64,000 nt of DNA from assembly GCF_014075995.1 (NCBI RefSeq), contig NZ_CP055152.1, positions 62,001 to 126,000 of the forward strand. Direction: 5' to 3'. Positions 48,132 to 61,023 of the stretch are shown in pieces. The notes under the pieces were generated by a model, which was not told where the DNA came from, searched no databases, and worked only from the letters and a program-made list of their open reading frames with translations. Every line of letters starts with the position of its first letter. Positions within the stretch are counted from its first letter, which is position 1. Position numbers and translations under genes: made by a program. This stretch comes from Adhaeribacter radiodurans. Lineage in GTDB: Bacteria; Bacteroidota; Bacteroidia; Cytophagales; Hymenobacteraceae.

Positions 48132-49978
48132 GTGTGCCCAGCATGGCACGGGTAATATTTCGAAAGAAAGATACTCAGATTATCCAGAGGGTGCAAGTCC
48201 CTTATCGGCGAGTTGGTGCAGCCGATTAGTAAGCCGCAAGGTGGTTGGAGGTAACTCCAGCATTGAAGGAAGCGGGACTACAAACTTCTGAACGGACGAA
48301 CAGAAACGGCATAAGAGGCACCGAGTCGTGGGTAAGCAAGCACCTCTTTGTAAAGCCCTTGACCAACAAACGACTTGGTGTAGATGCCGCTGGATTAGAA
48401 GGAAGGATAAGTGTCTTACCTGGGGAGGTCTCCCCACTACGGGTTAGCTAGGGAGAAGTCAGCAGCGGCCATAGTAGTCACGGGAAACGAGCCGTAAGCA
48501 CTACGGAGGTCTCACCACGTGATGAAGGGCCAAACGTTAAGTTTGTTCCCAATGTGGTAAGGAGGCGAGTCCAGTCTTACCTTAAGCGGAACAAGGATTA
48601 CCCTTAAAGTAGTAAGATGATTGAGAAAGTACTCCACCGGGGCAACCTGCTCCAGGCTTACCGCCAAGTGCGGGCCAACCAAGGTTCGGCCGGGGTGGAC
48701 GGTATGCCCGTGAGTAGATTAGCCGCATACCTGCAAGTCAGCAAAGATCGGATTGTCACGGCTATTGCGAATGGCAGCTACCTTCCTCAGCCCATCTTAG
48801 GAGTAGAAATACCCAAGAGCAACGGTCAGAAACGCCTGTTAGGCATTCCCACCGTCACCGACCGGCTGCTGCAACAGGCGGTAAACCAAGTCATCGCGCC
48901 CTTGTTTGAGCTGGCGTTCAAACCCTACAGCTACGGCTTTCGCCCCAATCGGAATGCCCAGCAGGCAGTATTGCAGGCTCAGAAGCATATCCATGCCGGT
49001 TACCAGCATATCGTGGACATGGATCTGAAAAGCTTCTTCGATGAAGTAGATCACTGCCTGCTCTTGCAACTGGTATACCGCAAGGTTAAATGCCCGCTCA
49101 CCCTGCGCCTGATCCGCAAATGGTTGCGGGCTCCTATGCTTATCCAGGGAAAGCTAACCAAACGCCGCAAAGGGGTACCGCAAGGCAGTCCGTTGAGCCC
49201 GCTGCTCTCCAACATCCTGCTCCACGAACTGGATAAAGAGCTGGAAAAGCAAGGCTGGCGGTACGTGCGCTATGCCGATGACTTCAGTGTTTACACCAAA
49301 AGTGAAGCAGCAGCCCGACAGGTGGGCAACAGTCTTTTCCTGTTCCTGAAAAACAAGTTGCGATTACCCATCAATCGGGAAAAGAGCGGCATTAGACGAC
49401 CAGTAGATTTCCAGATACTAGGTTACCGGTTTGTGCCCACTTACCGGAAAGGGGACAAAGGTAAATACCAGCTGGTGGTGGCCGAAAAGGCTTGGGTTAA
49501 GCTCAAACAAAGTCTGAAAGCCATTACCCGCAAAACCACACCCAGTACCTTTGAGGAGCGTATGGAGCAACTCAAAGAAGTGCAGCGGGGTTGGGTCAAC
49601 TACTTCCGTTTGGCTAGTATTCAGGGAAAGTTAAAAGAAGTGGATAGTTGGTTACGCAACCGGCTGCGCCATTGCATTTGGCATGACTGGAAGAAACCCG
49701 AGCGGAAAAGAAAGAACCTGATACGGCTAGGTGTTCCGGCGGGACAGGCTTACGCCTGGAGCCGGACCCGGAAGGGCGGCTGGGCGGTGGCCCAAAGTCC
49801 GATGCTGGGGACTACCATTACCCTCCAGCGACTGGTAAAGAGGGGATATGAATCGTTGCTCGATTACTACAAGAAAGTAGCTCTACAACTTAACGAACCG
49901 CTGTATGCGAGACCCGCACGTACAGTGGTGTGAGAGGCGCTCCCTGCTACCTATCGGTGGCAGGGCCGTCTACTCGAT
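48132..49978 (+). mobile_element. Group IIC-type intron
   Basis: The 5' end reads GTGTGCCCAGCATGG, the usual start of class C introns, followed by GGGTGCAAGTCCC. Domain V lies at about 49898-49928 (CCGCTGTATGCG ... CGCACGTACAGTGG) with a CGC triad, as in group IIC. Domain VI and the 3' end follow (CTACTCGAT, ending AT at 49977-49978). Length 1847 bases. Group IIC introns prefer hairpins such as terminators and attC sites, and this one sits in an attC-like hairpin. Confidence 0.85.
48617..49933 (+). CDS. ltrA: Group II intron reverse transcriptase/maturase
   Basis: 438 residues. RT motifs in order: GVEIPKSNGQKRLLGIPTVTDR, YSYGFRPNRN, DMDLKSFFDEVDH, KGVPQGSPLSPLLSNI and the active site YADD (219-222). 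The maturase domain X follows (LQRLVKRGYESLLDYY at the C-terminus); no En endonuclease domain, as expected for class C. The last codons overlap the intron's domain V, because the frame has no earlier stop. It would splice its own intron and reverse-transcribe it at the target. Confidence 0.95.
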   Translation: MIEKVLHRGNLLQAYRQVRANQGSAGVDGMPVSRLAAYLQVSKDRIVTAIANGSYLPQPILGVEIPKSNGQKRLLGIPTVTDRLLQQAVNQVIAPLFELAFKPYSYGFRPNRNAQQAVLQAQKHIHAGYQHIVDMDLKSFFDEVDHCLLLQLVYRKVKCPLTLRLIRKWLRAPMLIQGKLTKRRKGVPQGSPLSPLLSNILLHELDKELEKQGWRYVRYADDFSVYTKSEAAARQVGNSLFLFLKNKLRLPINREKSGIRRPVDFQILGYRFVPTYRKGDKGKYQLVVAEKAWVKLKQSLKAITRKTTPSTFEERMEQLKEVQRGWVNYFRLASIQGKLKEVDSWLRNRLRHCIWHDWKKPERKRKNLIRLGVPAGQAYAWSRTRKGGWAVAQSPMLGTTITLQRLVKRGYESLLDYYKKVALQLNEPLYARPARTVV

Positions 49979-50424: not shown

Positions 50425-50885
50425 TTTGTTGGCAGCTAACTAGCGGATAAACGGAGTTGTTCCGGTTATCTGCACTATGGCTGGAGTAGGAATACCTGCT
50501 TTCAGGAGGCTTGTAAGGGTGTTTTTACTAGTTAAAGTGGCTTGTTTCATATTATAAGTAATATATACAATATTCTCCAATTATCCTGCCAGCTCCACTT
50601 TTTCTTTCCCAAATAACTTTTATCTGAAATGAATTCTTTCTTTAGAGTTGATAGGCTCCTTAAAACGACTATTTGTAATCAATAGGAAAGGTATTTCAGA
50701 CTAAAAGAAGGGAATATATGGGTTGTACTTGGTCTTTTTAGAAGCCTTAGCCGATTAATAAACGGTTATAAACGTTTATATCCGTTTATAACCGTTTATT
50801 AATCGGCTAAGTAGCCTTTTCAGGAGGGAGTACGATGCTGTTTACTAAAGAAAGTTGCTTTTTAGTCCTAAAATACGTTGACCAT
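50425..50885. other. Intergenic region left of the recombinase element
   Basis: No ORF supported. It contains a 66-base near-perfect palindrome (50746-50811) listed separately. Confidence 0.5.
50746..50811. repeat. Perfect 29-base-arm palindrome
   Basis: Arms 50746-50774 and 50783-50811 are exact reverse complements with an 8-base spacer (TTTATATC). The arms contain repeated AAACG/TTTATA units. It lies 75 bases left of the outer repeat of the recombinase element. Confidence 0.9.
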
Positions 50886-50923
50886 TCATCTCACGAAACG
50901 ACCGTTTTACGAGACGAAATCTG

Positions 50924-50946
50924 AGCCTCCAAAAGGAGGCTTTTTT
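50924..50946 (+). terminator. Inward terminator at the left end
   Basis: AGCCTCC (50924-50930) and GGAGGCT (50935-50941) with an AAAA loop and six Ts. Placed before the recombinase promoter, it would stop outside transcripts. Confidence 0.85.
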
Positions 50947-50970
50947 CAGCTAAAAACCGTATCAAATGAC

Positions 50971-51009
50971 CATCTCATAAATCAAAAGTATTTTTGTATA
51001 TTTGAGATG
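50971..51009 (+). promoter_or_regulatory. Dyad and -7 element before the recombinase
   Basis: CATCTCA (50971-50977) and TGAGATG (51003-51009) are inverted arms. A TATATTTG box (50997-51004) fits TAnnTTTG and overlaps the right arm, 23 bases before the ATG. The dyad may be operator and recombination site at once. Confidence 0.5.
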
Positions 51010-51026
51010 GCATTCGTGAGACAAAT

Positions 51027-51587
51027 ATGAAAATAGGTTACGCTCGGGTCAGCACCCAGGACCAAAAATTAGAACTGCAATTAGACGCTCTCACCCGGCA
51101 GGGATGTGAGCTGGTGTTTCAGGAAAAGAAATCAGGTAAGAACAAGGAACGGCCGGAGCTGGAGAAATTGCTGGGTCAACTTCGGTCCGGCGATACGGTG
51201 GTGGTGTGGAAGCTAGATCGGCTGGGTAGGTCCTTGCGCGATTTGATTGACCTGGTAGCCGAGTTTCAAAGTAGGGGAGTAGACTTCGTGAGTTTACAAG
51301 ACGGCATCAACACGGCTACTTCCACTGGTCGATTTACTTTTAACATCTTTGCTTCTTTAGCCGAATTTGAACGCGAGATTATTAAAGAACGAACCAAAGC
51401 AGGCTTAGTGGCAGCCAAAGCTCGCGGCCGAGCAGGAGGGAGGCCTAGTGGTTTGACACCCGAAGCCATGGAAAAAGCCAGGTCCGCGAAAGTTCTTTCC
51501 GAATCAGGTAAGCGAGCAGAGGAGATTGCTAAGATACTGGGTATCTCTCGAGCTACTTGTTACCGTTATCTTGGATTGACATTTTAA
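51027..51587 (+). CDS. Serine recombinase (resolvase/invertase)
   Basis: 186 residues. IGYARVSTQDQ carries the nucleophile Ser9, VWKLDRLGRS and FNIFASLAEFERE are the classical catalytic and E-helix motifs, and the C-terminus has the helix-turn-helix GKRAEEIAKILGISRATCYRYLG. The typical size of Hin/Tn3-type resolvases. It is the first gene inside the left end of the element at 50886-60673, preceded by the dyad that recurs at the right end, so it probably acts on those sites. Confidence 0.93.
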   Translation: MKIGYARVSTQDQKLELQLDALTRQGCELVFQEKKSGKNKERPELEKLLGQLRSGDTVVVWKLDRLGRSLRDLIDLVAEFQSRGVDFVSLQDGINTATSTGRFTFNIFASLAEFEREIIKERTKAGLVAAKARGRAGGRPSGLTPEAMEKARSAKVLSESGKRAEEIAKILGISRATCYRYLGLTF

Positions 51588-51797
51588 ATTAAGTCAATTG
51601 CCGCCATATCAAGTAACTAAGATGATTACGCAAAATTTCCACTTGAATTAAACTTATCCTCTCAATTTTTTCTAATCCTTCCCATTTCCCAGAGAGTTTC
51701 CAAAGTTCGTAACAAGTAATCCATTCCTATAACTATGGGATGAAATGGTACAAAGCTAATTGTCACATAATGCAACAATTAGCTTTTAAGGCAATAT
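51588..51797. other. Intergenic, nothing recognised
   Basis: No supported gene or repeat between the recombinase and the convergent small gene. Confidence 0.4.
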
Positions 51798-52043
51798 TCA
51801 ACGTCCTTTATTTGATTGGGAAAGAACAGATGCAGCAAGCACTTTAGTCTCATTGCTATACTTTGAGCTGGATAGCGCTTTTGATGCAATATCTTCTACT
51901 TTACTTCCAGTCTGATGTCCTTTATTTACTTGTGATAAAGCAGATCCGGCAAGTGTCTTGGCTATTGAAGAAGCATATGGATCAGAAAGAACTTGCGCAG
52001 CATGTTTAGCAATATTGGAGGATGTAGATTTTTTGTTAGTCAT
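51798..52043 (-). CDS. Small two-repeat Ser/Ala/Lys-rich protein
   Basis: 81 residues made of two related units: AAQVLSDPYASSIAKTLAGSALSQVNKG and ASKALSSSKYSNETKVLAASVLSQSNKG. No transmembrane segment. Such small repetitive proteins occur widely beside mobile genes, but I know no function. It is divergent from the XRE/ImmA pair. Confidence 0.65.
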   Translation of the reverse strand: MTNKKSTSSNIAKHAAQVLSDPYASSIAKTLAGSALSQVNKGHQTGSKVEDIASKALSSSKYSNETKVLAASVLSQSNKGR

Positions 52044-52124
52044 AGGTTTTGTATATATAAGTTTTAACTATATACGAAAATATATAAATAAGTTTTTAAA
52101 AGCAATCATTTTTAAAAAAATTTA

Positions 52125-52161
52125 TGTCAACTATCACAAACAATGTTTGTGATAGTTGACA
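52125..52161. promoter_or_regulatory. Perfect 17-base-arm operator palindrome
   Basis: Arms 52125-52141 and 52145-52161 are exact reverse complements with spacer AAT. The right arm ends in TTGACA, the -33 region of the following promoter, so a bound repressor (likely the XRE protein) would block it. Confidence 0.75.
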
Positions 52162-52185
52162 TTGTATACTAAGTTTATATATTTG
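52156..52185 (+). promoter_or_regulatory. Bacteroidota-type promoter of the XRE/ImmA unit
   Basis: TTG at 52156-52158 and TATATTTG at 52178-52185, spacing 19 bases, fit the -33/-7 consensus. The ATG is at 52189, only 3 bases past the -7 box, so the transcript may be leaderless. Confidence 0.6.
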
Positions 52186-52188
52186 CGT

Positions 52189-52551
52189 ATGAGTTATTTG
52201 AGTCAAATAGAGTTTTATGTGGTGATAGGCCAGAATATCCGTGCTTGCCGTATGAAACTTAACATGAGCCAGACTGATCTTGCTTCTAAAATAAATTTAA
52301 GCAGAACATCTATCGTCAACATTGAACAAGGAAGACAACATCCATCCTTGTACTTACTAAGTCTGATAGCCAATGTATTAAAAATAGGAGTACATGATTT
52401 AATTCCTAACAATGTAGTTCCTGCATCCAAAGATGAAGAACTCAATAGCGTTTTAACGAAAGCCATTTTTAAGACTGGAATAAGTGAAAGTTCCCAGGAA
52501 AAACTTAGAAGCTTTACAGATAAAATTATAAACTCTGGAAATGAATCGTAA
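52189..52551 (+). CDS. XRE-family repressor
   Basis: 120 residues from the ATG at 52189 (an upstream ATG at 52156 lies inside the operator and -33 box). HTH_3 domain: YVVIGQNIRACRMKLNMSQTDLASKINLSRTSIVNIEQGRQHPSL. The C-terminal ~45 residues are helical. The stop overlaps the ImmA/IrrE gene by 11 bases. Such pairs work as repressor and derepressing protease, which suggests control of the downstream defence genes. Confidence 0.9.
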   Translation: MSYLSQIEFYVVIGQNIRACRMKLNMSQTDLASKINLSRTSIVNIEQGRQHPSLYLLSLIANVLKIGVHDLIPNNVVPASKDEELNSVLTKAIFKTGISESSQEKLRSFTDKIINSGNES

Positions 52552-53083
52552 AAGATTAAGGCAAATAGAAAAATGTGCTGAAGATAGTCTAAGGATGTTC
52601 GATTTATATTCCGAACCTATAGATGTCTCCGCATTAGCTAAAAATTTAAATCTTAATATTATCTATCATGATTTAGCCGAGGATATTTCTGGACTATTGA
52701 TTACTAATTTAGGCCAATCAACAATTGGTGTAAATTCTAATAATATAGAATTTAGGCAACGATTTACCATTGCGCACGAGATAGGGCATTATTTACTTGA
52801 ACATCAACGTGAAGGAGTGTTTATTGATAAGCCAAGTAATCTATTTACTATTGTGTATCGTGATCAAAATTCATCAACGGGTGAATTTCTACAAGAACGT
52901 GAAGCTAATGCATTTGCTGCAGCCTTATTAATGCCAAGAGAACTAGTGAATTTAGCTATAAAAAATACTAAATTTAACTTTGAAGATGATCAAGTAGATG
53001 TAATTCAATGCCTTGCAATTAAGTTTAAAGTTAGTAGTCAAGCCATGGGATTTAGATTAGCTAATCTGGATTTACTTTGGTAA
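52541..53083 (+). CDS. ImmA/IrrE-family metallopeptidase
   Basis: 180 residues. Zinc-binding HEIGH at residues 79-83 (FTIAHEIGHYLLEH) and a downstream EREANAFAAALLMP give the COG2856 signature. These proteases cleave or pair with XRE repressors when triggered by DNA damage or phage signals. Overlaps the XRE gene by 11 bases. Confidence 0.93.
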   Translation: MNRKRLRQIEKCAEDSLRMFDLYSEPIDVSALAKNLNLNIIYHDLAEDISGLLITNLGQSTIGVNSNNIEFRQRFTIAHEIGHYLLEHQREGVFIDKPSNLFTIVYRDQNSSTGEFLQEREANAFAAALLMPRELVNLAIKNTKFNFEDDQVDVIQCLAIKFKVSSQAMGFRLANLDLLW

Positions 53084-53184
53084 AATAACCGTTTTCTTAA
53101 TGTTATCTGATTTCTCTTTTCCCCTCTACTTTGCATTTCTATGCAATTAGTTAAACTTTTTCGCTCATTATAAAACCTTTAAAA

Positions 53185-54246
53185 TTGAATTTGACTTTTT
53201 ATACATCTTTACTTGAGGATGTCAAATCTCGTATCCGGATAGCCCAGACGAAAGCAACTTTGGCCGCTAATGCAGAGATGATTTTCCTATATTGGGATAT
53301 TGGTCAGCTGATTTTCCAACGCCAACAGGAACAAGGTTGGTCAGCCGCAGTAATACCTAAACTGAGCAAAGACCTGAAGAATGAGTTACCGGAACTTAAA
53401 GGGTTCTCTGAACGCAATTTAGGGCGAATGCTAGCCTTTTACCGGGAATATCCACCTGAAATCGAGCAATCTGTAAATTTGCCACAGCCCGTGGCAAATT
53501 TACAGATTGCTAAAATGCAATTGGAAATTGTTGCTCAACTTCCATGGGGGCATAATTTATTGTTGATTGAAAAAATCAAAGATATGCCTACCCGGATGTG
53601 GTATGCCCAACAAACTATCCAAAATGGCTGGAGCCGGGATGTATTAAGCTTAATGCTTAAAAGTAGCCTGCACACAAGACAAGGCAATACAATCAATAAT
53701 TTTGCTGAACAACTTCCTGATCCGCAATCAGACCTAGCTAGACAAAGCCTTAAAGATCCGTATATTTTTGATTTCCTGACCCTAACTCAACCTTTTACTG
53801 AAAGAGAACTAGAGGTAGAACTTACTCGGCATATCGAAAAATTCTTATTGGAGTTAGGAACTGGTTTCGCTTTTGTCGGCCGACAGTATCATCTGACAGT
53901 AAGCAATCACGATTATTACTTGGACTTATTGTTTTATCATCTACATATGCGATGCTTTGTAGTGATTGATCTAAAAAAAGGAGAGTTCAAACCTGAATAT
54001 GCTGGAAAGATGAATTTTTACTGTTCAGCAGTGGATGACTTGTTAAGACATGCAACTGATGGTCCCACCATCGGGTTAATTCTTTGCCAGACCAAGGATA
54101 AAGTGATGGCTGAGTATGCCCTTCGGGATGTAAAAAAGCCAATTGGCATTTCTGAATTTGAATTAACGCGTGCTCTTCCCGAAAACCTCAAGTCAAGTCT
54201 GCCTACGATTGAGGATATTGAAAATGAATTAACCCATAATAAATAA
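53185..54246 (+). CDS. YhcG/DUF1016-type PD-(D/E)XK nuclease
   Basis: 353 residues from a TTG start. The N-terminal domain (LEDVKSRIRIAQTKATLAANAEMIFLYWDIG ... FSERNLGRMLAFYREY) is DUF1016_N, and the C-terminal nuclease domain shows YYLDLLFYH (D247) and FVVIDLKKGEF (D262, K264). These proteins are Holliday-junction-like or DNA nucleases often found in restriction or defence loci. Residues 94-109 are encoded by a perfect 45-base palindrome (53466-53510), an odd insertion within the frame. The next gene begins 11 bases downstream. Confidence 0.9.
   Translation: MNLTFYTSLLEDVKSRIRIAQTKATLAANAEMIFLYWDIGQLIFQRQQEQGWSAAVIPKLSKDLKNELPELKGFSERNLGRMLAFYREYPPEIEQSVNLPQPVANLQIAKMQLEIVAQLPWGHNLLLIEKIKDMPTRMWYAQQTIQNGWSRDVLSLMLKSSLHTRQGNTINNFAEQLPDPQSDLARQSLKDPYIFDFLTLTQPFTERELEVELTRHIEKFLLELGTGFAFVGRQYHLTVSNHDYYLDLLFYHLHMRCFVVIDLKKGEFKPEYAGKMNFYCSAVDDLLRHATDGPTIGLILCQTKDKVMAEYALRDVKKPIGISEFELTRALPENLKSSLPTIEDIENELTHNK
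53466..53510. repeat. Perfect palindrome inside the YhcG coding sequence
   Basis: Arms 53466-53485 and 53491-53510 (20 bases each) are exact reverse complements with spacer AGCCC. It is read through in frame as QSVNLPQPVANLQI. Confidence 0.9.
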
Positions 54247-54257
54247 AATTAAACTAT

Positions 54258-57200
54258 ATGAAATTTATAGATCGACATGATATTGAAAAGTGGGCAGAGC
54301 GATATGACTCAAAGGGTTACTTGCCGTACTTAATTTCAAGACTTGTGCGATCTACTACTCCTTTAGGTACATTCGTAGAGTTTCCTGACGGTAGCAGTAC
54401 ATTTATTGGGGGTTGGGATGGTAAGGTGATTTGTAATGAGTCAACCCCATACGTCCCTGCCGGTACGTCCATGTGGGAGTTCGGTACAGAAGTAAGTTCT
54501 GCTGGAAAAGCGAACAGAGACATGGCAAAACGGACAGCAGATACGCTCGGATATGAGCCATCAGAATGTACCTTGGTTGTAGTTACTCCTAGATTTTTCA
54601 AAAAGAAAGATGAAGTCAGACAGAAGAAAATAGCACTTGGTATCTGGAAAGATGTGCTTATTTATGATTCTAGGAATTTGGAAGAATGGTTTGAAATAGC
54701 TCCCGTGGCCTCACGATGGTTTTCAAGTTACGCTAAAAAATACCCTCCAGACGGAATTATAACTATTGAAGAGTATTGGAAGGAATGGGCTACAGGACCG
54801 ATTGGCATACTTCCACCAAAAACGGTAACAGCAGGAAGAGAGTATGAATCTGAGCAACTTCTGAAATTTCTTCAAGGAGCTCCAGCAATTTTACCTGTAC
54901 AAGCTTCATCAAAGGATGAGGCTGTTGCTTTTATAATCGCAGCAGCTATGCAGTTCGAAAAAGCACATCAAGAAGCATTTGCCGCAAAGGCACTTGTGGT
55001 GGATACGCCTGCAAACTTCAGAAGTATCCGAATAAATCAGTTTGGATTAAATCTTATTGCGAAGTTTGATCATCCACAAGTTTTGTATGCAGGTGTTGCA
55101 GATGGTCATCATGTTTTAGTACCATTAGGAGCAGATGACACCTTCAATCAAGACAAGTTGGTTTTGCCATTAATTGATCGGGATGGATTGGTTGAAGCAT
55201 TAAAATTGATGGGGCTATCTGAAACGACAGCTGCCAGTTATTCAAAGGAGAGTGCTCGAAATATAACTGTTCTAAAAAGGCTCCTAAAATTCCATCAGTA
55301 TCAGTTAGAATGGGCTGAACCTGAGAATGCCAAAGAGATTATTCCCGGAATGTTGATTGGCAGATGGAATGAAAAAAACAAAGGCGATATTGAGCTTATT
55401 GAAAAGTTGGCTCAAAAGGATTACAAGAGCTTTATTAAGGAAATATCGAGGTGGAATGATCATGAAACCCCACCATTTATAAAAATAGGTGAAACTTGGC
55501 GATTGACTTCACCCCTTGATGCATGGGCTCATTTGGCTGAACATCTTTCGTCAGAGAACCTAAACACTCTTAAAGAATGTTTTTTCGAGGGATTTAAATA
55601 TGGTAATCCTACGCTAGAACCAGATTCAGATAAAGCCGCTTTTACTCAGTTCTTATCTAAAGAAAAAAAGTTTTCATCATGGGCTCGTGAAGGGCTAGTC
55701 CAATCATTAATTCTTATTGGTTTATATGGTAAGGGGTTAAAAATTCTAGATATGGAATCACCTCAAATATGGGTTGATGACATTATAAATGAGTTACTGA
55801 ATGATGCAGACGGTCAATTGTGGTCTTCATTAAATAATGAAATGCCTCTTATTTCCGAAGCTTCTCCCAATAGTTTCTTTAATTCCATTTTTGATTCGCT
55901 TAAAAAATCCCCTTCTCCATTGTTAGAAGTTTTTCGAGAGGTTGAAGGCTTTATAACTCCAACTAGTCATCATACTGGTCTGCTTTGGGCTTTAGAGGGT
56001 CTGGCTTGGGATCCTGAGTATTTGGGTGATTCAGCTTTAGCTTTAAGTAAATTAGCTCAATTTGATCCAGGTGGAGCTCTTTCTAATAGACCAATCAACA
56101 GCCTGGTGGAAGTTTTCAAGCCTTGGCATTATCAAACTTTGGCGAGTTTTGATGAACGCATGAAAACTGTTCGTCAAATTGCTGCTATAACCAAAGAGAT
56201 CGGCTGGGCTTTACTTTTACAAATGCTGCCTCAAAGTCACGGAGTTGGTCATCCGACCCATAAAATGCGTTGGAGAATGCTTGATCATAGTTTTGATAAA
56301 AACTATACCTACAAAGAGATTTGGGATACCCACTCCGAAGTGGTTAATATAATGGTTTCTGTTTTTGACTATTCGGAAGGCCAATTATCTGACATTCTGG
56401 AGGGCATCATTAATTTGTCTATTCAAGACCGGGAAAGCTTACTTTCCTTTTTGGATTCCGAATTAGATAAAATTCAACAAGTTGAATATACTGCTTGGCA
56501 CACTTTAAGAAATAAACTTTCTCATCATAGATCATACCCCGATACTGAATGGGCTTTACCCGAAGATGAATTAAAGAAGCTGGAAATCATATATGAACGG
56601 TTAACACCTAAGGATTCTATATTAAAATATAAATGGCTCTTTGACGATCATTGGCCAAGATTTCCTGAAGGAGATGGACGTGAAGAAGGACAAAGTGAAA
56701 GTCGACACGATCAAATGCAAAAGAAGATAGATGATCGAAGAGTCGAAGCACTTAAAATAATACTTGAGGAATATGGATTAAGTAAAGTTATTTCTTTGAG
56801 TCAGTCTATAAAAGAGCCTTGGTCCTTAGGAGATACCTTAGCCAAGATATCAAATGATGAGGTATTAACAGAAATTATTGGATTGTTGGATACATCGGAT
56901 GATAAGGTTCTGAGATTCGCTCAATCATTTATTTATCGAAAGTCAATTCTAAAGGGAGAAGAATGGACACTTAATTATTTCGAACAGTTTGATAAAAAGC
57001 AAATAAATGACAAAGCACTTGCTAGGTTTTTCATACCGCTGAACCAAACAAAAAAGTTATGGGACTTTATCAACGGATTCAATAAAGGAATCAAAAATGA
57101 ATATTGGCTTCATATGAACCCGCGTTTTTATCTTTTAAAACAGGATGAGATAATATACGGACTCAAAGAGCTTTTAAATCACTCTAGATTTATTAGTGCA

Positions 57201-58046
57201 ATTGATGTTGCTAGCCATTCAACGGAAGAAATTCCATCAGATTTAATCGTGGACATTTTGATAAAGGCGGCTACAGTTGAATCTAAAGAGACAGCTCGCC
57301 TTCATGGTTATGAGGTTGATAAACTTTTTGAAGAAATTGACAAACGCTCTGATGTGGAACGAGGAAAAATGATCCACCTCGAATGGTTATATTTATCAAT
57401 ATTGGCGTCATATGGTAATAGAAGGAATCCACGGGTATTACATGATGAGCTGGCAAATAACCCAAAATTTTTCTTAGAAGTACTAAAATGGGTTTACATG
57501 CCCAAAAACAAGGAATTAGTAGAAGAAGAACGCCAAGGCTTGTCTGATGAAGTTATTGGGAATAGAGCTATGCAAGCCTATAAGCTTCTTGACTCTTGGA
57601 AGAGAATTCCTGGAGTAAATGAACAAGGTGAAATTAATAAAGATAATCTGCAAAATTGGGTTAAAGAGGCTAGAAAATTAGCCCAAGAAGCTGATCGTAT
57701 AGAAGTAGCTGATGCGCAGATTGGTCAAGTACTGGCACAATACCCTGAAAAAGAACCAGATTGGCCACCTGAGGAAATATGTGAAATTATTGAAACGGTT
57801 AATACAGATAGTATTAAAAGAAACTTTTCGTCAGCCACACATAATAAAAGAAGCTTCTCGTCAAGAGGGCCATTTGATGGAGGTAATATAGAAAGAGGCC
57901 ATGCAGAATATTTCAGAAAGCTTGCTAAGGGACACCGTAGAAAACACCCAATTATTGCCCGAATCTTTGATGGATTGGTTGATGGATATTTACGTGAAGC
58001 CAAAAGAATGGATGAAGAAGCAGAGAGGAGTAAATTAGATTATTAA
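54258..58046 (+). CDS. Large defence-like protein with possible nuclease head and helical body
   Basis: 1262 residues, no signal peptide or membrane segment. The first ~170 residues contain GGWDGKV (D54) and SMWEFGTE ... GKANRDMAKRT (E74, K84), a spacing that could form a PD-(D/E)XK-like active site; then LPVQASSKDEAVAFIIAAAMQF (~212-232) looks like a degenerate STAND/P-loop-like strand-helix without the GKT/S residues. Residues ~430-1240 are long helical repeats. It lies 11 bases after the YhcG nuclease gene and should be co-transcribed. Architecture resembles large phage-sensing proteins; the family was not identified, and the nuclease call is inference. Confidence 0.6.
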   Translation: MKFIDRHDIEKWAERYDSKGYLPYLISRLVRSTTPLGTFVEFPDGSSTFIGGWDGKVICNESTPYVPAGTSMWEFGTEVSSAGKANRDMAKRTADTLGYEPSECTLVVVTPRFFKKKDEVRQKKIALGIWKDVLIYDSRNLEEWFEIAPVASRWFSSYAKKYPPDGIITIEEYWKEWATGPIGILPPKTVTAGREYESEQLLKFLQGAPAILPVQASSKDEAVAFIIAAAMQFEKAHQEAFAAKALVVDTPANFRSIRINQFGLNLIAKFDHPQVLYAGVADGHHVLVPLGADDTFNQDKLVLPLIDRDGLVEALKLMGLSETTAASYSKESARNITVLKRLLKFHQYQLEWAEPENAKEIIPGMLIGRWNEKNKGDIELIEKLAQKDYKSFIKEISRWNDHETPPFIKIGETWRLTSPLDAWAHLAEHLSSENLNTLKECFFEGFKYGNPTLEPDSDKAAFTQFLSKEKKFSSWAREGLVQSLILIGLYGKGLKILDMESPQIWVDDIINELLNDADGQLWSSLNNEMPLISEASPNSFFNSIFDSLKKSPSPLLEVFREVEGFITPTSHHTGLLWALEGLAWDPEYLGDSALALSKLAQFDPGGALSNRPINSLVEVFKPWHYQTLASFDERMKTVRQIAAITKEIGWALLLQMLPQSHGVGHPTHKMRWRMLDHSFDKNYTYKEIWDTHSEVVNIMVSVFDYSEGQLSDILEGIINLSIQDRESLLSFLDSELDKIQQVEYTAWHTLRNKLSHHRSYPDTEWALPEDELKKLEIIYERLTPKDSILKYKWLFDDHWPRFPEGDGREEGQSESRHDQMQKKIDDRRVEALKIILEEYGLSKVISLSQSIKEPWSLGDTLAKISNDEVLTEIIGLLDTSDDKVLRFAQSFIYRKSILKGEEWTLNYFEQFDKKQINDKALARFFIPLNQTKKLWDFINGFNKGIKNEYWLHMNPRFYLLKQDEIIYGLKELLNHSRFISAIDVASHSTEEIPSDLIVDILIKAATVESKETARLHGYEVDKLFEEIDKRSDVERGKMIHLEWLYLSILASYGNRRNPRVLHDELANNPKFFLEVLKWVYMPKNKELVEEERQGLSDEVIGNRAMQAYKLLDSWKRIPGVNEQGEINKDNLQNWVKEARKLAQEADRIEVADAQIGQVLAQYPEKEPDWPPEEICEIIETVNTDSIKRNFSSATHNKRSFSSRGPFDGGNIERGHAEYFRKLAKGHRRKHPIIARIFDGLVDGYLREAKRMDEEAERSKLDY

Positions 58047-58255
58047 GCTTAAACTATACGATAAGGCATAAAAGTCAGTCTGGGGCTAAAAACCTTGCCC
58101 ATAGTTTAAACCAGTATGTTGTAGCTTATCAATTATGCAAAAGTTAGAAACATACTTTCTTAAACATTATACATTAGTAGGTACCTATCCATTACAATAA
58201 GCTAATAATTTTAAATTAAATTATTCTAATATACTTTTAACTAATCAGCTATTTC

Positions 58256-59497
58256 ATGGCTCAATCCAAAAAGCACCACATAATACCGCAATCCGTTTTA
58301 CAGAACTTCAGTTATCAAAATAACAAGAAGCAAATTTATGTCTATGATAAAAAAAGATCGAATTTATTTTTAAGTTCAATCGTAGATGCCGGAAGTGAGA
58401 ATCATTTCAACTCTATAAAACTCGGTGACTTAGATCTTAACTTTGAATCATTTTTTGATACTAATGATTCTTCACTTGCGACAATTATAAAAAAGATAAT
58501 CGACAAAGAAAGTATTGCCGGCATAAATACTAAAGAGACTAAAACTCTAATTAGATGCATAGCTTTTCAGCTAATGCGTACCAAGATACAGCGGACAACG
58601 TTTGTTTCTTTCCACGAACAATTAAAGATGCGGATTGAAAATGAAGGGTGGTTATCTGACATACATATCCCATCAGAGCAAGAGGCTAAACTTTATAATC
58701 TAGCACAGCTATCCAACATTGAAAAAATAGCTAAGAGTTTAGACGATAAGATTATCCTATTATATAAAACACACTCTCAACGTTATTGGATCACAGATAA
58801 TCCTATAATTGTATTTAATAGCTTACCTTATGGTGATAATGATATAGAATCTAGAGGAATTCAAATATATTTCCCAATTTCTGAAAAATTTGTATTGTGC
58901 CTCTTATGTCCTTCACATTTGGAAGAAATTAGTATAAAGTACCAGTCTTTTAATTCTAAACATATAATTGATACTCAATTAATAACTGACAACCACTTTG
59001 AAACCCAAATAATGGAGTCAAGAGGTATTAGTTTTCTTAAATACTTACAAATTTCTTCATCTTCAAGATTTATTTATAGCAGTGACAACGACTTCCTTTT
59101 CGCTACAGAAGTTTTGAAAGAATTTCCCAAATATAGGGAAATCACATCACAAGGAGTTGTTGGTGAAGTTGGTAAAGGGCCATTACCGCAGAAGAACATG
59201 CCTAAAGGTGAATACCTGGTTGTGCATGGCAATAGATTTAACCATATGATAAAAATCAATGTGATAAAAGGGCATATTACTGCAAAATTTATTGCTAACG
59301 ATTCAGAGGCTATGAAAAGAGTTGAGAATGATAAACCACATCGAAGCGCTGAGATTTATTCAGATGGTAGAATAAATAAGCAAATACCTAACCCGCAATT
59401 TGATAAGTTTACTGTAGATGAAAAAATACATTACGAGTTAAGTTATAAAGATAAATCTATCGAAGCACTCTTTAAAGAGATATTGAAAGAAAAGTAG
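58256..59497 (+). CDS. DUF4238 protein
   Basis: 413 residues. The opening QSKKHHIIPQSVLQNFSY and IYVYDKKRSNLF ... NHFNS are the DUF4238 signature (HHxxPxxxLxxF). The C-terminal ~150 residues are a separate region. DUF4238 genes are frequent in accessory and defence regions; the reaction is unknown. It follows the large gene by 209 bases, with no terminator recognised, so it may be a separate unit of the same island. Confidence 0.8.
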   Translation: MAQSKKHHIIPQSVLQNFSYQNNKKQIYVYDKKRSNLFLSSIVDAGSENHFNSIKLGDLDLNFESFFDTNDSSLATIIKKIIDKESIAGINTKETKTLIRCIAFQLMRTKIQRTTFVSFHEQLKMRIENEGWLSDIHIPSEQEAKLYNLAQLSNIEKIAKSLDDKIILLYKTHSQRYWITDNPIIVFNSLPYGDNDIESRGIQIYFPISEKFVLCLLCPSHLEEISIKYQSFNSKHIIDTQLITDNHFETQIMESRGISFLKYLQISSSSRFIYSSDNDFLFATEVLKEFPKYREITSQGVVGEVGKGPLPQKNMPKGEYLVVHGNRFNHMIKINVIKGHITAKFIANDSEAMKRVENDKPHRSAEIYSDGRINKQIPNPQFDKFTVDEKIHYELSYKDKSIEALFKEILKEK

Positions 59498-59873
59498 TTC
59501 ATAAATCTTAAAGGAATTATTGTACAGGTAAACGGAATATATATTATAAATTTTTATAGAATACACCCACTATTAACAATGTCTTTATAAAATTGTGGCT
59601 AAAAATTAAGCATTCAAATTCAAATGACCAAAATAAAATACGAATTCTATTGAACATAAAATTAGTTATGAGGACAAATTAATTTCCTGAAATTCAACCC
59701 CTCAAATAATTCTTACAGAAAAGCCTTTCTCTTTATTTACCGTATGTATCTTCGCTCACCCAGTCACATCTAGGTTGAGTTAACGTGATTTGTATCGGCA
59801 TTATAACGAAGGATGTCTACTGGCTAATAGCAACCTTAACAAGTAAATTACTCCCTTAAAACTGATTAGATAC
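59498..59873. other. Intergenic, nothing recognised
   Basis: About 375 bases, AT-rich, no supported ORF, terminator or repeat. Confidence 0.5.
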
Positions 59874-60185
59874 ATGAACAAATACGGATTACACGGAAAA
59901 CTAAAAGCTACCAGTGGCAATGGCGAAAAGCTAGCTAGTATTCTGCTAGAAGCATCCAAGTTGGTTTCCACGGCCCCAGGTTGCCATCTTTATATTATTA
60001 GTAAAGATAATGTGGACGAAAATGCGGTTTGGGTTACCGAGATCTGGGATAGTAAAGAAGACCACGATAATTCTTTGCTGGTGGCCGGGGTGAAAGAACT
60101 CATTTCCCAAGCGATCCCGCTGCTGGATGGAAAACCTGAAAAAGGACAAGAATTGGATGTTTTAGGCGGAGCCGGAATCAAGTAA
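59874..60185 (+). CDS. ABM-domain putative quinol monooxygenase
   Basis: 103 residues with the YgiN-like ABM pattern: YGLHGKLKATSGNGEKLASILLEASKLV ... GCHLYIISKDNVDENAVWVTEIWDSKEDHDNSL. A second ABM protein lies at 46714-47007 but in different context. Likely homodimeric; substrate unknown. Followed by a strong stem-loop. Confidence 0.85.
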   Translation: MNKYGLHGKLKATSGNGEKLASILLEASKLVSTAPGCHLYIISKDNVDENAVWVTEIWDSKEDHDNSLLVAGVKELISQAIPLLDGKPEKGQELDVLGGAGIK

Positions 60186-60190
60186 TGGGC

Positions 60191-60228
60191 AAAGAAAAAG
60201 TATAGCGGCAGAACTGTACTTTTTCTTT
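60191..60228. terminator. Bidirectional terminator
   Basis: AAAGAAAAAGTA (60191-60202) pairs exactly with TACTTTTTCTTT (60217-60228). It lies between two convergent genes. Confidence 0.8.
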
Positions 60229-60242
60229 GATCAGCCTAAGGT

Positions 60243-60485
60243 CTAAGCGTTATCTTGCTCACCTTCTGCTGTTTTTTTCTTCCGGCCGCGATAGCCACCT
60301 CTTTTCTTCACTTTCAATTCACCCGAGCGCGCTTGATTCACCAGATTTTCTAGTTCAGCTAAGCCGCTTTTTTGGTTCGTGACATAACGCTCCAGACTGG
60401 TGGTTAGAGCTTCTAAAAGCTCTTTGTTTTGCTGCGCTTCTTGCAGGGTTTGTACTATTTCGTTAATGTTTGCTTCTTTGGCCAT
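60243..60485 (-). CDS. Small coiled-coil basic protein at the right end of the element
   Basis: 80 residues. A helical, Glu/Gln/Leu-rich N-terminal part (VQTLQEAQQNKELLEALTTSLERYV) is followed by a basic GKY/RGRKKK tail (VKKRGGYRGRKKKT), suggesting a dimeric DNA-binding protein. It reads inward from the right end of the 50886-60673 element, mirroring the recombinase at the left end, and could be a directionality or end-binding factor. Confidence 0.55.
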   Translation of the reverse strand: MAKEANINEIVQTLQEAQQNKELLEALTTSLERYVTNQKSGLAELENLVNQARSGELKVKKRGGYRGRKKKTAEGEQDNA

Positions 60486-60548
60486 TTAGGTAGAGTTTAT
60501 CCCGCATCAAAGATATTGATAGTGGGCTAGAAAACAGTAACATCAAAC

Positions 60549-60589
60549 GCATCTCATAAATTATAAATTTAACTTGATAGATGAGATGC
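60549..60589 (-). promoter_or_regulatory. Right-end dyad
   Basis: GCATCTCAT (60549-60557) and ATGAGATGC (60581-60589) are exact inverted arms. It corresponds in position and sequence to the left-end dyad at 50971-51009. Confidence 0.7.
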
Positions 60590-60611
60590 TCTTTTGAGAT
60601 ATCTATTTTGC

Positions 60612-60640
60612 AAAAAAGACCAAGTTGCACTTAGTCTTTT
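60612..60640 (-). terminator. Inward terminator at the right end
   Basis: AAAAGAC (60614-60620) and GTCTTTT (60634-60640) form the stem; on the minus strand a T-run follows. It mirrors the left-end terminator (50924-50946). Confidence 0.65.
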
Positions 60641-60837
60641 CCTTTATCATTTTTAGGTCGTTTTCCGAGATGATTTTTTACTTGACCCGTCCTAAAAAAA
60701 GTAGACCTTTTGGTTAATCCTTACTTAGGTTGACCATTATTGGTTCGTGTTGTTTTTTGTTACTAGCCAGCATTGTTAAATACTTTTGTTATAGTAGTTT
60801 TCCATCTCCGCTTCAGTTATCCTGTCTAGCGGTACGC

Positions 60838-61023
60838 CTACTCGGGAGCAAGCATATTACAACTTAGGTGTGGACGCTTGTAGTTGTAGAGAAACACCGC
60901 TTGCTCCAGCACCCGTTGCGCCTGGATGAAAGAATACACCTTTTGGTGGCTCAGGTATTCTTGCCTGAGAATTCCTTTTCCCCTCTCGGAAAATTCAGCT
61001 GAATACAGTTTATTTCCTGTTGT
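60838..61023 (-). pseudogene. IS3-family transposase C-terminal remnant
   Basis: A minus-strand reading GILRQEYLSHQ then FIQAQRVLEQAVFLYNYKRPHLS and a stop at 60838-60840 is the end of the IS3 OrfB/rve integrase domain (usual form NGILKQEYL ... YNxxRPHxSL). The upstream portion of the gene is gone. No terminal repeats of the IS were recognised. Confidence 0.75.

Follow-up and report, generated by a model that had tools for sequence, protein, structure and literature searches.

A defence-gene segment between inverted copies of a dispersed site in Adhaeribacter radiodurans, a probable module of a small serine recombinase

The 9.8-kb segment and its genes

The window (the whole stretch of 64,000 nucleotides analysed here) is part of the 136-kb contig C1 of Adhaeribacter radiodurans, whose genome comprises two contigs (C1 and C2). 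Its DNA was compared with other genomes of the genus Adhaeribacter and of its family, the Hymenobacteraceae (Cytophagales). The two ends of a 9.8-kb segment in the window are inverted copies of a dispersed site of ~150 bp, and the genes between them are listed in Table 1. The preliminary description had read this segment as one element with matched composite ends. The results showed that its outer 18-base repeats, TCATCTCACGAAACGACC (50886-50903, + strand) and TCATCTCGGAAAACGACC (60673-60656, - strand), agree at 15 of 18 positions, and that terminator-like hairpins face inward at both ends. CATCTCAT lies exactly 85 bases in on both sides, starting at 50971 on the left and at 60588 on the - strand on the right. 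GAGATG follows at an equal distance at both ends, as claimed, but the spacing is 33 bases and not 34. The inward genes are, as described, that of the serine recombinase on the left and that of a small basic protein on the right, and there was no known transposase among the ORFs scanned within 51027-60485. Global alignment of the two 130-bp ends gave a score of 20.8, compared with a shuffle mean of -8.4 (sd 4.0, z = 7.2). None of 2000 dinucleotide shuffles reached this score, so chance does not explain the similarity of the ends. The matched layout is thus present at both ends, but it is not unique to this pair and belongs to a dispersed family of such modules. Likewise, the inward basic gene is found in the window but at only some of the right ends elsewhere.

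Table 1. Features of the 9.8-kb segment, in window coordinates (R1 is the site model described in the text)
Feature	Position	Strand	Remarks
Left composite site	50861..51013	+	model R1 93.6 bits; homology breaks at core
Left arm of left site	50861-50888	+	TTTAGTCCTAAAATACGTTGACCATTCA
Presumed crossover dyad, left site	50889..50914	+	TCTCACGAAACG-AC-CGTTTTACGAGA (12 + 2 + 12)
Terminator hairpin, left site	about 50925-50946		sequence reading
Second dyad, left site	50970-51010		sequence reading
Extra half-site TTCGTGAGAC	51013..51022	+	directly 5' of recombinase ATG
Small serine recombinase, 186 aa, catalytic domain and HTH	51027..51587	+	Pfam Resolvase 1.3e-49, HTH_7 1.8e-7
Cargo: Xre-type HTH regulator	52156..52551	+	Pfam HTH_3 5.7e-14; PADLOC capH-like 1.8e-9
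Cargo: ImmA/IrrE-type metallopeptidase	52541..53083	+	Pfam Peptidase_M78 1.2e-20; PADLOC capP 2e-34
Cargo: YhcG/DUF1016 PDDEXK nuclease	53185..54246	+	Pfam YhcG_C 2.6e-66; PADLOC PDC-S02 9.6e-145
Cargo: 1262-aa protein	54258..58046	+	no Pfam, PADLOC or NCBIfam match
Cargo: DUF4238 protein, candidate defence gene	58256..59497	+	Pfam DUF4238 1.2e-29; PADLOC DUF4238-Pers 4.7e-8
Cargo: antibiotic biosynthesis monooxygenase (ABM) domain protein	59874..60185	+	Pfam ABM 4.1e-9
Small basic protein, 80 aa, joined to right site	60243..60485	-	no family match
Second dyad, right site	about 60550-60590		sequence reading
Right composite site, inverted relative to left	60547..60692	-	model R1 89-91 bits
Terminator, right site	about 60612-60640		sequence reading
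Core dyad, right site	60645-60670		right half degenerate
IS3-family transposase remnant	60682..60989		adjoins outer (left) arm of right site

The recombinase has the layout of a small serine recombinase (resolvase/invertase), with a Pfam Resolvase domain at residues 3-135 followed by a C-terminal HTH_7 at 138-182. Its closest solved structure is a DNA-invertase (PDB 4m6f, E 4e-49). It is not of the IS607 type: its HTH is C-terminal instead of N-terminal, and the NCBIfam IS607 model gave 36 bits against a cut-off of 110. In the window the recombinase ATG lies 138 bp from the core, and the distance is 137-139 bp in every copy with an intact start (four genomes). Close copies have a dN of about 0.03 and a dS of about 1, which indicates strong purifying selection on the protein. 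Pontibacter orthologues are about 81% identical and have in common both upstream dyads and the start-codon spacing; the hairpin between the two dyads is not conserved there. The motif TGAGACA, similar to the extra half-site, was found upstream of most of these orthologues, and the half-site in the window is possibly involved in autoregulation or serves as a res-like subsite. A second recombinase subfamily (51% identical) is represented in genome G006, at about 355 bp from a site, and has a similar position in A. swui (G003). A third, more distant recombinase (38%) is present inside three segments that carry neither of the first two types. Recombinase genes with a site but no partner site nearby were seen at A. 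radiodurans C2:3572k, in G004 and, for some copies, in G005. G006 is rich in sites and has the cleanest cassette, yet it lacks a close recombinase of the first type and carries the 51%-identical relative, so the pairing of enzyme and site is not one to one.

The gene of the 80-aa basic protein is joined to a right arm in the same way on contig C2 of G006, and as a pseudogene at A. radiodurans C2:2109k. Intact paralogues at A. radiodurans C2:3740762 and 4730450 have no upstream site. The module may have recruited a host DNA-binding protein here, and our guess is that the protein assists DNA bending at the right end. To the left of the segment, a group II intron with a maturase (RVT_1 and GIIM) occupies window positions 48245-49960, near the 3' end of a 148-aa gene, and the upstream region of that gene is the left arm of the site.

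The dispersed site and the exchange of its arms

About 20 copies of the site were found in the A. radiodurans genome, with and without a recombinase gene. An earlier consensus pattern was too strict (4 matches) and was replaced by R1, a sequence-only model built from eight site copies. R1 matched 2-20 times in each of the other seven Adhaeribacter genomes; matches were fewer in other genera of the family, except in G018 with 18; these counts include a few reverse or partial matches to one site. Copies outside the training set scored down to 9e-27, so R1 did not produce the site family as an artefact. Each copy consists of a left arm (consensus TTTAGTCCGGAAATACGTTGACC), a core (TCTCNNGAAACGAC and a second half-site) and a right arm, which usually carries a terminator hairpin and a CATCTC...GAGATG dyad. 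Among 52 cores, TCTC, AAACG and AC are near-invariant, and the NN positions and the right half vary. The 12 + 2 + 12 form of the core dyad is that of DNA invertase crossover sites. Both window sites, which are inverted to each other, are built on a 26-bp dyad with a 2-bp asymmetric centre and read left arm-AC-right arm, and this polarity is the same in nearly every site.

A second type of right arm (CGTTTTCCTGAGAT...TTTTACATA...TTATCAGG), which lacks the terminator and dyad layout, occurs at L013:6128 and 8114, L118:1995, L043:7407 and L117:16377. Near some sites there is also a related stretch of ~830 bp with an 83-aa gene (L012:2914-3715 and L043:12085-12909), of which the copy on the 136-kb contig and the chromosomal copy are 74% identical. 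A role as RNA was considered and rejected: the left module folded with z = -5.6, but RNAalifold on eight sites recovered the second dyad only, with little covariation. Rfam gave no match except the nearby group II intron.

Comparison showed that loci exchange arms at the core, where homology switches partner, and that the sites are spread over plasmids as well as chromosomes. In G006, contigs C2 and C3 share a cassette (2.27 kb) with an alpha/beta hydrolase gene and two small ORFs, at 99.65% identity over 2276 bp; both of its borders lie within cores and the sequences outside are unrelated. The same sites recur on these two contigs at offsets of 74,427 and 35,300 bp, and we read both as circular plasmids assembled with an overlap. 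Inspection by eye found genes for a ParA-like protein and a possible replication protein on contig C3. Two copies of a GH35 gene are 98% identical up to the core. One hydrolase left arm adjoins three different cargo segments, and a unit of about 670 bp, made up of a right arm and a recombinase gene and ending at the stop codon, is found on many different left arms. At G003:C2:110.6k a hybrid site has a left arm like that of the window (71%) and a right arm that is 85% identical over 2.4 kb to A. radiodurans C2:3084k. With pairs disturbed by an IS or by general similarity of the arms set aside, nearly all homology breaks were located at -4 to +13 relative to the start of the core. Because homology switches partner at the core between loci, these are recombination sites and not transposon ends. 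The hydrolase and GH35 comparisons are anomalous in one respect. Despite near-identical flanks, they also differ in the left half-site (TCTCNN), so these breaks lie a few bases left of the AC centre, and a central crossover alone does not explain them.

These observations bear on two other readings of the site. The first is a true transposon, with the inverted ends as terminal repeats, a 9.8-kb unit that transposes and the serine recombinase as transposase. The inward pairs resemble one another in length and have a recombinase gene at one end, and in one case the 14-bp core could be read as a target duplication. Nevertheless, we think a transposon unlikely, as the same sites also flank single genes as direct repeats and occur at a distance from any recombinase gene, the left arms have a separate conserved block, and homology breaks at the core inside the site rather than at its outer edge. 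The ends are not transposon-type termini; each is a hybrid site, with arms exchanged at the core ~28 bp inside the module.

The second is a MITE-like dispersed repeat with no role in recombination, rearranged by homologous recombination or by ISs that target it. The number of copies in A. radiodurans would fit such a repeat, as would the IS1182-type elements in the core of many copies and the IS3-type ends against several left arms. This reading is improbable to about the same degree. The copies are mostly 60-80% identical over about 150 bp, which makes them poor substrates for homologous recombination, and the breaks cluster at the core instead of at the repeat edges. It also leaves the orientation bias of the sites and the fixed recombinase spacing unexplained.

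The core dyad is an insertion hot spot: about a dozen site copies have an IS1182-type element in the centre of the core, between ...GCAACAGCC and ACGAC.... These copies, some with and some without a recombinase gene, are at L008, L009, L010 and L152-L161 (A. radiodurans C2 and G005). The IS3 remnant of the window matches the end of an IS3-type element at A. radiodurans C2:2118240 with 79% identity over 315 bp. The end of such an element (CGTCCTGAAAAACATTGACC) resembles the conserved left-arm block (AGTCCGGAAATACGTTGACC), as seen at L018:14240-15640, at window 60682-60989 and in several left arms. On this likeness, an IS end may be the origin of the left arm.

Inward-facing pairs and their cargo

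The orientation of neighbouring R1 sites up to 16 kb apart was counted without the weak matches, and each replicon was taken to be circular; G007 and G018 are fragmented assemblies, and site orientation within both was outside the analysis. Right arms faced inward in 12 pairs and outward in 1, and 10 pairs were direct. Random orientation would give 5.7 inward pairs (P = 0.0016 for 12 or more), and the joint probability of 12 or more inward and 1 or fewer outward pairs is 5e-5. The 12 inward pairs come from four genomes and lie 7.4-14.8 kb apart. Three of them belong to A. swui, two on plasmids recorded as circular and complete (NZ_CP055154.1 and NZ_CP055155.1). Paired ends with differing cargo thus occur beyond the window, so the refuting condition of the preliminary description, that such pairs are absent elsewhere, does not hold. 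A serine recombinase gene lies within every one of the 12 segments, and known or candidate defence genes, listed here by presence, lie within most of them. The earlier idea of a recombinase-mobilised element with defence cargo was borne out to this extent.

The cargo differs from segment to segment. The window segment carries Xre/ImmA, YhcG and DUF4238 genes; another has HEC-01A/B, Shedu (SduA) and a weak pAgo match; a further one has PDC-M48B, a Fic protein and PDC-S19. AbiEii, SngB/SngC, PDC-M04A and CBASS with a cGAMP synthase, a phospholipase and an E2 were also among the cargo. In two segments on the chromosome, RES/Xre-like pairs were noted by visual inspection alone. The YhcG and 1262-aa genes are 92% identical in DNA over 4.9 kb to those in a chromosomal inward-facing segment with different neighbours (the 1262-aa gene lies at L009:1460-5251 there and at 54258-58046 in the window). 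We regard the gene of the 1262-aa protein, as the companion of YhcG, as a candidate defence gene. No phage record matched. The comparison of genomes shows inward-facing pairs 7-15 kb apart as a recurring arrangement with different, largely defence-related contents.

A putative cassette-exchange system

We consider it probable that the 9.8-kb segment is an accessory module between two inverted complex recombination sites, and that these belong to the Gin-like small serine recombinase whose gene lies at the left end of the module. The linked recombinase would make the arm exchange. Judged by its enzyme family, it would bind the second dyad as well as the two half-sites of the core; two sites would then pair and exchange strands at AC. 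As the centre keeps the polarity left arm-AC-right arm, each exchange would regenerate the same kind of site. Single-gene cassettes would be excised or inserted between direct neighbouring sites, and a single inward-facing pair would invert its module. With two inward pairs on different replicons, modules would be swapped through cointegrate formation and resolution, which would be a natural form of recombinase-mediated cassette exchange. Because AC has the same polarity in nearly every site, the predicted outcome is inversion of the module or cassette exchange, and not excision of a circle. The same uniform polarity led us to reject a single excising element with an attP-like site of joined right arms. 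All data are comparative, and no inverted, excised or empty form was seen in the genome sequences.

The plasmid dif (pdif) modules of Acinetobacter are the nearest parallel. They hold accessory genes, often toxin-antitoxin genes, between inversely oriented sites, and can be inverted and replaced between plasmids (PMC13141974, PMC6449649). Their sites are inverted (PMC6449649), and module exchange has been modelled as cointegrate formation and resolution (PMC13141974). In both systems the same flank adjoins different modules, with the break at the site. However, dif sites are 28 bp long and are used by the tyrosine recombinases XerC/XerD, whereas the Adhaeribacter sites are about 150 bp long with a terminator hairpin and a second dyad, and the modules encode a serine recombinase inside. 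The core dyad (12 + 2 + 12, linked to a serine recombinase) is not a 28-bp XerC/XerD site. Since both enzyme and site are of another family, the system resembles dif modules in its working but falls outside that group. In our reading, the modules may be shuffled like those of Acinetobacter, but by a dedicated serine recombinase.

The DNA invertases Gin, Hin and Cin (26-bp sites) share the recombinase family, the domain order, the 12 + 2 + 12 dyad and the inverted pair. They act on short phage or flagellar switch segments with an enhancer, in contrast to the 7-15 kb of cargo here, and unlike them Adhaeribacter has dozens of sites whose arms are exchanged between replicons. The Tn3/gamma-delta resolvases resemble the system in having a small serine recombinase and, beside its gene, a site I and a second dyad. 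The dyad centres are about 87 bp apart in Adhaeribacter and about 53 bp apart in Tn3/gamma-delta res. Unlike in Tn3/gamma-delta, there is no Tn3-type transposase and the sites are dispersed without the gene. The segment is not a Tn3-family transposon, which would have a TnpA transposase and 38-bp terminal repeats: no transposase was among the scanned cargo genes, and the ends are arms of recombination sites.

The direct arrays of genes with sites are cassette-like, as in integrons, and the recombinase gene faces away from its own site in both. The sites could accordingly be taken for attC sites of a chromosomal integron, moved by the integron integrase. An integrase above the curated cut-off does lie at A. 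radiodurans C2:4434734, about 14 kb from a site cluster. Yet at E <= 1e-30 the integrase model matched nothing in G003, G006 and G002, all rich in sites, and G006 among them has the cleanest cassette. The attC core GTTRRRY is absent from the sites, which have GTTGACC instead, and the breaks are not there. Since these three site-rich genomes gave no integrase at that threshold, the system is not an integron, and we hold that reading to be very improbable. Integrons use a tyrosine integrase and a folded attC, whereas neither an integrase nor an attC core is required in Adhaeribacter. The integrase gene itself (C2:4434734-4435630, 283.6 bits) lies on a Cytophagales chromosome; another integron integrase gene, in G005, has an internal stop.

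It is an open question by what routes defence genes gather in islands and pass from one replicon to another in exchange. Transposons, phage satellites, integrative elements and integrons make up most of the known carriers of such genes. Recombinase-encoding modules with inverted landing sites would, if confirmed, be a separate route that uses its own enzyme, unlike the Xer-driven dif modules. A search confined to the open-licence literature found no description of a serine-recombinase cassette or module system, which counts as weak evidence. Every ORF between inward-facing sites, including that of the 1262-aa protein, would be a candidate in the discovery of new defence genes, and the enzyme with its sites could serve as an orthogonal tool for cassette exchange. 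The defence segments between inward-facing sites, together with the recombinase, look like an undescribed way of swapping defence-gene blocks between plasmids and chromosomes. More tentatively, and with less confidence than we place in the module itself, we suggest that the Hymenobacteraceae may possess a dedicated system for natural cassette exchange, organised around the turnover of defence genes. Inverted landing sites standing on plasmids and chromosomes would allow a small serine recombinase to exchange whole defence-gene blocks among replicons with no deletion of the genes.
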